In this document: positions 1,217 to 11,999 of the stretch, one piece after another
How positions within the stretch are numbered: the stretch's first letter is position 1
Layout of the letters: every line of letters begins with the position of its first letter
Assembly: GCA_024692885.1 (NCBI GenBank)
Contig: JAILLZ010000096.1
Location: 1 to 42,188 of the forward strand
Source: Lachnospiraceae bacterium
GTDB taxonomy: Bacteria; Bacillota; Clostridia; Lachnospirales; Lachnospiraceae
DNA length: 42,188 nt
Direction: 5' to 3'
Program-made: the position numbers and the translations under genes
The notes under the pieces: model-generated
What the model was told of the DNA's origin: nothing
Seen by the model: only the letters and a program-made list of their open reading frames with translations
Database searches by the model: none

Positions 1217-1300
1217 TGCAGGAAATGGGACTTGAACCCACACGATATTGCTACCACAGGCACCTGAAGCCTGCGCGTCTGCCAATTCCGCCATTCCTGC
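1217..1300 (-). tRNA. tRNA-Leu (anticodon CAG), CCA not encoded
   Basis: Reverse complement GCAGGAATGGCGGAATTGGCAGACGCGCAGGCTTCAGGTGCCTG...GTGGGTTCAAGTCCCATTTCCTGCA: acceptor GCAGGAA/TTCCTGC, anticodon stem CAGGC/GCCTG with loop TTCAGGT, T-loop TTCAAGT, long variable arm. Confidence 0.95.
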
Positions 1301-10432: not shown

Positions 10433-10972
10433 TTGAAATGCAGTTATATGGAAATGAGTATTACTAAGATATATGAAGATATTCACTCAGTGATTTACTT
10501 CATTGAAACTGACCAACCTCAAACAAAAAAGGAAGACAGAAAGCAGCGAAAGAGCTCGCTGCTTTCTAAAGTGTTAAATGTCGACGAGAATGCATTGCAG
10601 CTTGGAGAACACGGGAAGCCGTTCCTTAAGGACGGCTCCCGATTTATTTCCATATCTCATGATGACAACGTGTCGGTGCTTGCTGTGAGTGATATCAATA
10701 TCGGCGTTGATATAGAAAGAATTGGCGAAGCAAAAATGAGAATCGTAAAGCGATTCTTCCCACCTTCATTTAAGGATGCGGTAGAATCCACTTCGGGTGA
10801 GGACAGAAATCGTGTGTTCTACGAGAAGTGGACTATCATAGAAGCTATACTTAAAGCAGACGGTAGTGGCTTCCACAGAGACATAAACGAGGATCCTGCG
10901 TGGATTTTTAATTGGAAAACAGTATCATTTGAACATGAAGGATTTATGGTTAGTTTGGCATACTCTAATTAA
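10433..10972 (+). CDS. 4'-phosphopantetheinyl transferase superfamily protein
   Basis: ISISHDDN, IGVDIERIGEAK and KWTIIEAILKADGSGF, matching Sfp/AcpS-type motifs. Confidence 0.8.
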   Translation: MKCSYMEMSITKIYEDIHSVIYFIETDQPQTKKEDRKQRKSSLLSKVLNVDENALQLGEHGKPFLKDGSRFISISHDDNVSVLAVSDINIGVDIERIGEAKMRIVKRFFPPSFKDAVESTSGEDRNRVFYEKWTIIEAILKADGSGFHRDINEDPAWIFNWKTVSFEHEGFMVSLAYSN

Positions 10973-10981
10973 TGCATTTCA

Positions 10982-11217
10982 GATGGCTGGTTGCATATAA
11001 TCATTGCAATTCTTGCCTTCGGACTAAAGTTTTTCTAAGCATTTTTATATAGTTTTTGGTAACGTACGCAAACGTTCGCTACACGCCATCCCTGGCGTGG
11101 ACCTCACTAGTTTCACCATCCGGGTGAAACTTTGCTGGGGAGTGAATTAAAAATGCTAAGAAAAACTGAAAGTCCTACGTAAAAGAATTGGCAATTGATT
11201 ATATGCAACCTGCCATC
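10982..11217. repeat. Long imperfect inverted repeat (about 66-70 bp arms) with internal hairpins; MITE-like element or structured RNA
   Basis: Left GATGGCTGGTTGCATATAATCATTGCAATTCTT...GGACT...GTTTTTCTAAGCATTTTTA matches the reverse complement of the right arm GATGGCAGGTTGCATATAATCAATTGCCAATTCTT...GGACT...GTTTTTCTTAGCATTTTTA. Internal hairpins: CACGCCA-tccc-TGGCGTG and GTTTCACC-atccg-GGTGAAAC. Confidence 0.85.
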
Positions 11218-11312
11218 AGCAACGCTTTAACATGGATAATGAAGTTGTAACCTAATTCCATCATTTCAATAAGAATAAATGACAGTTATGATTGAGGCTG
11301 AATAATAAAAGC

Positions 11313-11999
11313 ATGGCTGTATTTGAAAAGGTAACAACGATGTTTGGAATAAAGAAAAATAAGAAGAAACAAAAAGATAATGATTCGCAGCATATAGTAA
11401 TTGAGGTTCCGCAGGAACTTGAAGATCTTGCGTCTCAGATAGACAAGAAGATGTGCTTCAAGCCCGGCAGAACAAAGCGTGTGGCGGACATCAGTCTTGA
11501 GATGTTAAGAAGAATGCATAAAGATGCAGATACTTGTGAAAGAGTCGTAAAACTTGCATATGCTTTTGATGCAGGATTTCTGCTTGTACCTGATGAGATA
11601 TTGTCAAAACCCGATAAGTTGACTGAGGAAGAACTAAAAACACTTAAGGAAAAAGTCATTTCCTACGAGGATGCAGATGTATATAAAGATGTTTCCAACG
11701 TATTAAAAGACATTCCGAATGCAAATCAGATTATAAGAGCACATTTTGAGAGATACGACGGAAAGGGATATCCTGATGGACTTGAGGAAAAGGAAATTCC
11801 TTTTGAGACCAGAGTTTTGCAGATTGCGACAGCTTACGTATCCATGACATCGAAGCGACCATACCACGATGTTTTTACCAAGGGAATGGCCCGAGGAGAA
11901 ATCATAGCCAATAAGGTTTCTCAGTTTGATCCTGTTGCCGCAGATGCCCTTATAGATATGATAGACGAGGACATCGATTACAAATTGCGCGAGCTATGA
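11313..11999 (+). CDS. Degenerate HD-GYP domain protein
   Basis: HD-GYP-like layout (VPDEILSKPDKLTEEE, FERYDGKGYPDGL, ISKRPY-like MTSKRPYHD), but the HD signature reads AFDAGF and HHE reads AHFE. Confidence 0.75.
   Translation: MAVFEKVTTMFGIKKNKKKQKDNDSQHIVIEVPQELEDLASQIDKKMCFKPGRTKRVADISLEMLRRMHKDADTCERVVKLAYAFDAGFLLVPDEILSKPDKLTEEELKTLKEKVISYEDADVYKDVSNVLKDIPNANQIIRAHFERYDGKGYPDGLEEKEIPFETRVLQIATAYVSMTSKRPYHDVFTKGMARGEIIANKVSQFDPVAADALIDMIDEDIDYKLREL

Follow-up and report, generated by a model that had tools for sequence, protein, structure and literature searches.

A TwoAYGGAY-bearing inverted repeat from Lachnospiraceae as a probable decayed copy of a non-autonomous DNA transposon

Background

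The Correia or NEMIS elements of Neisseria are bacterial MITEs; they are short and non-coding, carry terminal inverted repeats, duplicate their target and occupy many intergenic positions, and if transcribed they give a long hairpin.

The TwoAYGGAY motif (Rfam RF01731) was first reported by Weinberg et al. 2010 where, in the available parts of that paper, it is assigned no function and is scored as probably an RNA, with 'n' for cis-regulation (PMC2864571). The Rfam type label of the family is 'Cis-reg'; two covarying pairs were added in Rfam 15, according to the available text of its description (PMC11701678), and the accessible portion of a study by Gardner and Eldai proposes, from matches to RMfam motifs, that TwoAYGGAY is a CsrA-binding sRNA (PMC4333381). 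In the portions of main text available from publications that name the motif, there is no mention of its lying inside a transposable element. The new part of the present analysis is that TwoAYGGAY is carried by a MITE; the motif itself, an Rfam family, is the known part.

Results

The window (the whole stretch of 42,188 nucleotides analysed here) belongs to a MAG of 2.18 Mb in 264 contigs, 81% complete (G000). Its inverted repeat at 10982-11217, described in a sequence-only reading as lacking an ORF, is borne out on both counts; as RNA, the 236 nt fold at -105.9 kcal/mol, against -51.1 +/- 4.5 in 200 shuffles (z -12.2, 0/200). The minus strand matches the covariance model of RF01731 from position 1 to 168 at 112.7 bits, where the gathering threshold is 43 bits, which places the structured core in a family already described; other Rfam families gave only chance matches at a relaxed threshold. 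The two core hairpins are as previously described (CACGCCA, 11082-11088, with TGGCGTG, 11093-11099; GTTTCACC, 11110-11117, with GGTGAAAC, 11123-11130), and the CCATCC noted at both on the plus strand is GGATGG, i.e., a GGA loop, on the minus strand, the one modelled by Rfam. The loops of this copy, CGGAT and AGGGAT, both contain GGA and neither is an exact AYGGAY. Elsewhere in the window there is a tRNA gene (1217-1300, minus strand; RF00005, 52.2 bits). The features of the locus are collected in Table 1.

Table 1. Position of the inverted repeat, its parts and its neighbours in the window
Feature	Position	Strand	Basis or remark
Probable decayed MITE copy, estimated full extent	10947..11252	-	Sister copies in this genome, whose arms extend 66-70 nt past the Rfam core
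Well-preserved inner inverted repeat	10982..11217	.	Sequence and RNA fold
RF01731 TwoAYGGAY match, full model 1-168	11014..11182	-	112.7 bits, alignment
First GGA-loop hairpin, GTTTCACC-CGGAT-GGTGAAAC on minus	11110..11130	-	Sequence, fold, Rfam alignment
Second GGA-loop hairpin, CACGCCA-GGGA-TGGCGTG on minus	11082..11099	-	Sequence, fold, Rfam alignment
One long arm (inner part), with AAAATGCTTAGAAAA block on minus strand	10982..11050	.	Fold and copy alignment
Other long arm (inner part), complementary to 10982-11050	11147..11217	.	Fold and copy alignment
Flanking gene, 4'-phosphopantetheinyl transferase superfamily (PF01648)	10433..10972	+	3' end overlaps outer arm
Flanking gene, HD-domain protein (PF13487)	11313..11999	+	Start approximate

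The ends of the element do not fall at 10982 and 11217, as had been supposed, since comparison with better-preserved homologous copies places them about 35 nt farther outwards on each side; with the arm lengths of sister copies this gives a span of about 10947-11252, and the outer arm therefore overlaps the last ~26 nt of the transferase ORF. In these outer ~35 nt the terminal repeat described below is not recognisable on either side, and re-examination agrees with the earlier reading that no target-site duplication is visible, because this copy has lost its recognisable ends. On these two grounds we read the window copy as an old one whose outer ends have decayed. It shows no promoter-like sites beyond chance. 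A transferase-HD locus matching that of the window was not found in the congener G001, which therefore provides no empty site for this copy.

The repeat is not single-copy. A BLASTN comparison within the genome recovered copies and fragments at 72-84% identity, and 14 RF01731 matches exceed the gathering score in G000 (the window copy and 13 others); arms without a full core also occur (fragments on contigs C13 and C141), and several copies lie near contig ends, as is seen with assembly-breaking repeats. When the copies are aligned, the stems vary on both sides together, i.e., there is compensatory change, and pairing extends past 10982 and 11217. Across the family, TwoAYGGAY is present in 39 of 249 sampled Lachnospiraceae genomes at 1 to at least 20 copies per genome; the element is thus patchy in its distribution and amplified within genomes, with about 14 copies in G000. 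In one genome (G191:C36:54401 and 54705; L116) two near-identical elements stand in direct tandem, 304 bp apart. The full element had no match in plasmid and phage records, the terminal repeat none in viral contigs, and a search for a long core pattern in genome contigs likewise found none.

The boundaries of the element were set from seven copies in G201 (~92% mean identity) and four similar copies in G147, in which homology ends sharply far outside the Rfam model; one end carries GATTCGGGTGTCAAAAGGT and the opposite end the complement of this sequence. Lengths and ends were measured over 104 copies; elements whose ends can be recognised measure 297-317 bp, and their arms reach 63-75 nt past the core (G201, G147, G085 and G067), and three copies in the genome of the window (on C56, C199 and C165) span 298-303 bp, with diverged remnants of the terminal repeat 66-70 nt outside the core. 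With three mismatches or fewer allowed, G201 has 86 occurrences of the terminal repeat and G147 has 19, where a reversed control pattern gives 2 and 1, respectively, and the exact 19-mer was found in at least 120 GTDB genome stretches, nearly all Lachnospiraceae; a handful of contigs assigned to Muribaculaceae or Gastranaerophilales probably reflect mis-binning. Copies in many other genomes (G009, G023, G062, G111 and G265) are too diverged for their ends to be fixed, so that the terminal repeat has been established in only part of the family.

Seventy-two pairs of terminal repeats were collected. Among the 67 non-redundant pairs of up to 400 bp, the flanks are identical at a length of 7 in 24, where 0.29 would be expected from mismatched flanks, and of the lengths tested, 4 to 11, only 7 shows such an excess. 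The target sites are AT-rich, with a consensus near CTATAAG, and the 7-bp duplication is seen in full-size and short elements alike. TwoAYGGAY was inside all 16 full-size pairs scanned with Rfam (16/16) and in none of four short pairs scanned (148, 160, 244 and 245 bp); in elements of the standard size its distance from the ends is ~68-75 nt. Core-less elements of 38-245 bp exist among the terminal-repeat pairs, and the short forms look like deletions of the centre. Comparison of sites gives two examples. At one orthologous site L239 has an element of 315 bp and L201 retains 27 bp of one end only, which is not a clean empty site; at the other L259 has 312 bp, and the insertion in L203, with similar flanks, has the centre of the palindrome (the core) deleted. 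The 38-bp elements consist of two terminal repeats back to back (L257, L141 and L142), those of L257 and L141 adjoining CTATA-like or CTACA-like sites. Several insertions (copies in G201, e.g., L105, and the L259/L203 site) are placed just past terminator-like hairpins, in the order CACGCTTTAGCGTG, a T-rich stretch and CTATAAG; this arrangement suggests an insertion preference for terminator tails.

Within genomes, identity between copies is 79% in the three-way-junction core, 68-70% in the arms and 51-53% in the linkers, the difference between core and arms having p 0.002-0.005; the core is under constraint. By folding, 64 of 100 copies have two or more GGA-loop hairpins, 31 have one and five have none. 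Copies in G009, G265, G121 and G023 (L038, L039, L064-L067, L111 and L041) have CACGATG loops, which correspond to CACGGATG minus one G; these genomes have csrA, yet one or both hairpins of the copies have lost the GGA.

In the sample of 249 genomes, csrA scores above the cut-off in 37 of the 39 with TwoAYGGAY and in 89 of the 210 others (Fisher p 2e-10). About 15 changes are required for TwoAYGGAY on an RpoB tree built from 58 of these genomes. When either trait was simulated along this tree, p was 0.003 for so few carriers without csrA, and an independent-pairs test on the tree, which is more conservative, pointed in the same direction (about 3.4 to 0.3) and was not significant. Motility, which csrA tracks, is a possible confounder of the association. 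One of the two exceptions is the genome of the window itself, in which, at 81% completeness, neither csrA nor fliW was found; both are present in its congener G001. In several TwoAYGGAY genomes there is a second CsrA of ~93-132 aa; in one case (G067:C54:10614-10763, L080) a divergent second CsrA-like ORF, in a frame of 132 aa, lies ~1.2 kb from the TwoAYGGAY copy at C54:11975.

G-U pairs are equally scarce on both strands of the copies (119/2721 on the modelled strand, 137/2802 on its complement), and the per-genome consensus sequences give 16/375 and 30/390, respectively; tRNAs taken from the same loci and treated in the same way give 70/506 against 21/449. With no G-U excess, the evolution of individual copies is unlike that of RNA genes. 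A strand asymmetry in the arms (199 against 148 when pooled) was considered as proof of RNA selection and rejected, being due to the one expanded family of G201; with that genome left out there are 159 G-U and 145 A-C. Relative to neighbouring genes, by crude ORF calling, 24 copies are sense, 27 antisense, 25 between convergent and 15 between divergent genes, sense and antisense being counted against co-directional neighbours; the upstream neighbour is directed towards the element in 53 cases and the downstream neighbour in 57, and there is no bias towards an orientation favouring transcription from a neighbour gene.

Discussion

The inverted repeat in the window very probably belongs, as a copy that has decayed, to a Lachnospiraceae family of non-autonomous DNA transposons (MITEs), and TwoAYGGAY is the cargo of this family, because the elements have terminal repeats and 7-bp duplications and the core is present in every full-size pair scanned. 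The sequence-only reading had offered a new MITE or a structured ncRNA as alternatives. Both apply; the MITE half stands on the terminal repeats and duplications of the family, while the structured core, a putative RNA, is not new but the known RF01731. That the palindrome arose by chance, or is neutral and without homologues, has a negligible probability beside a fold with z -12, 14 Rfam matches in one genome and 39 of 249 Lachnospiraceae genomes with the motif.

The intact element, of ~300-316 bp, consists of the ~19-bp terminal inverted repeat followed by two complementary arms of ~110 nt, which enclose the TwoAYGGAY motif as a three-way-junction core that is strand-asymmetric. In the model we propose, the terminal repeats would be recognised by a transposase provided in trans, and the element would insert at AT-rich sites of 7 bp (e.g., CTATAAG), which become duplicated, multiply inside the genome and then decay, often with loss of the palindrome centre. 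We infer a DDE-type transposase acting in trans from the terminal repeats and target duplications. An autonomous partner sharing the terminal repeats was not found in a search of a few genomes for the transposase families ISL3 and IS256; ISL3 transposases are absent from the genomes searched, those of IS256 are few and not linked to terminal repeats, and the solo terminal repeats examined run into ordinary genes. Two longer repeat pairs were rejected as autonomous elements, that of 1.6 kb in L141, which is crossed by integrase-like and phosphatase-like ORFs (by eye), and that of 921 bp in L267, which holds a serine resolvase alone. The latter pair (L267:1337-2257; 0 and 4 mismatches) contains half an arm followed by an ORF of 254 aa with a serine resolvase N-terminal domain (PF00239).

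The leading, though unproven, proposal for the function of the cargo is that it is a decoy for CsrA, which we regard as a plausible reading of the sequence patterns and the most likely one. In a transcribed copy the two GGA-loop hairpins would bind a CsrA dimer, and all copies together would act as decoys. It is conceivable, more tentatively, that each insertion adds CsrA-binding sites and that copy number thereby tunes or exploits a post-transcriptional regulator of the host. Such tuning or exploitation, if real, would explain why lineages that carry csrA are almost the only ones to have the element.

The main rival is that the hairpins act as DNA, core and arms folding as single strands or forming cruciforms that serve the machinery of transposition or of replication, which we consider possible though doubtful; the companion idea, that pairing is kept by constraint on the DNA or by correction of one arm by the other, is equally tentative. 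The stems vary widely yet remain Watson-Crick, the copies are oriented at random relative to genes, and G-U is no commoner on the modelled strand than on its complement, unlike in tRNAs. Pairing may therefore be kept at the DNA level, and the missing strand bias argues for caution over any role of TwoAYGGAY as RNA. However, the core is strand-asymmetric, its GGA loops and tandem G-A pairs belonging to a single strand and being kept across lineages; a DNA role does not predict the association with csrA, nor does a transposon that has terminal repeats and makes 7-bp duplications require a three-way junction at its centre, and elements of 38-245 bp exist without the core.

The GGA-loop pairs, the co-occurrence with csrA and the conservation of the core, together with the RMfam CsrA-site match in the available text of PMC4333381, could also be taken to mean that these are trans-acting CsrA-sponge RNA genes, like CsrB or RsmZ, selected by the host and merely multiplied by a MITE. 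We consider this unlikely, given copy numbers that range from 1 to 20 or more, a patchy distribution with about 15 changes on the tree, the decayed copies, the window copy's lack of promoter-like sites beyond chance and the absence of a G-U strand bias. A cis-regulatory RNA acting on the adjacent gene is far less probable still; the Rfam annotation and the closeness of copies to genes are in its favour, but the occurrence of both orientations relative to genes is evidence against it, sense copies (24) being about as numerous as antisense (27), with 25 between convergent genes and neighbours pointing at the element from either side (53 and 57), and the 2010 score for cis-regulation, in the part of that paper available, was 'n' (PMC2864571).

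With the CsrA decoy as the preferred reading of the cargo, the proposal can be put more sharply: does a mobile element multiply the binding sites of a global regulator, spreading only where that regulator exists? The RF01731 matches in Lachnospiraceae are MITE copies, which reframes an orphan RNA family of 2010, and consequently its counts, its 'cis-reg' label and its covariation support need to be read again. Absence of a G-U strand bias also offers a cheap and general way to check if a 'structured RNA' that covariation has revealed is really maintained as RNA.

The TwoAYGGAY element shares with the Correia/NEMIS MITEs its short, non-coding nature, its many intergenic copies, its terminal repeats, its target duplication and the long hairpin that a transcript would form. 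It differs in the terminal repeat itself, in its AT-rich 7-bp target and in its conserved, strand-specific three-way-junction core, and no parent insertion sequence was found for it. As for RF01731, the window copy fits the whole model, with two GGA-loop hairpins in a closed junction; whereas Rfam describes an isolated cis-regulatory RNA, the motif here is the middle of an element of ~300-316 bp with terminal repeats and 7-bp duplications. The likeness to the sRNAs CsrB/CsrC and RsmX/Y/Z lies in the paired GGA-loop hairpins and in the csrA carried by TwoAYGGAY genomes. Unlike those sRNAs, TwoAYGGAY resides on a mobile element in many decaying copies, has loops without GGA in some lineages and shows no G-U strand bias.
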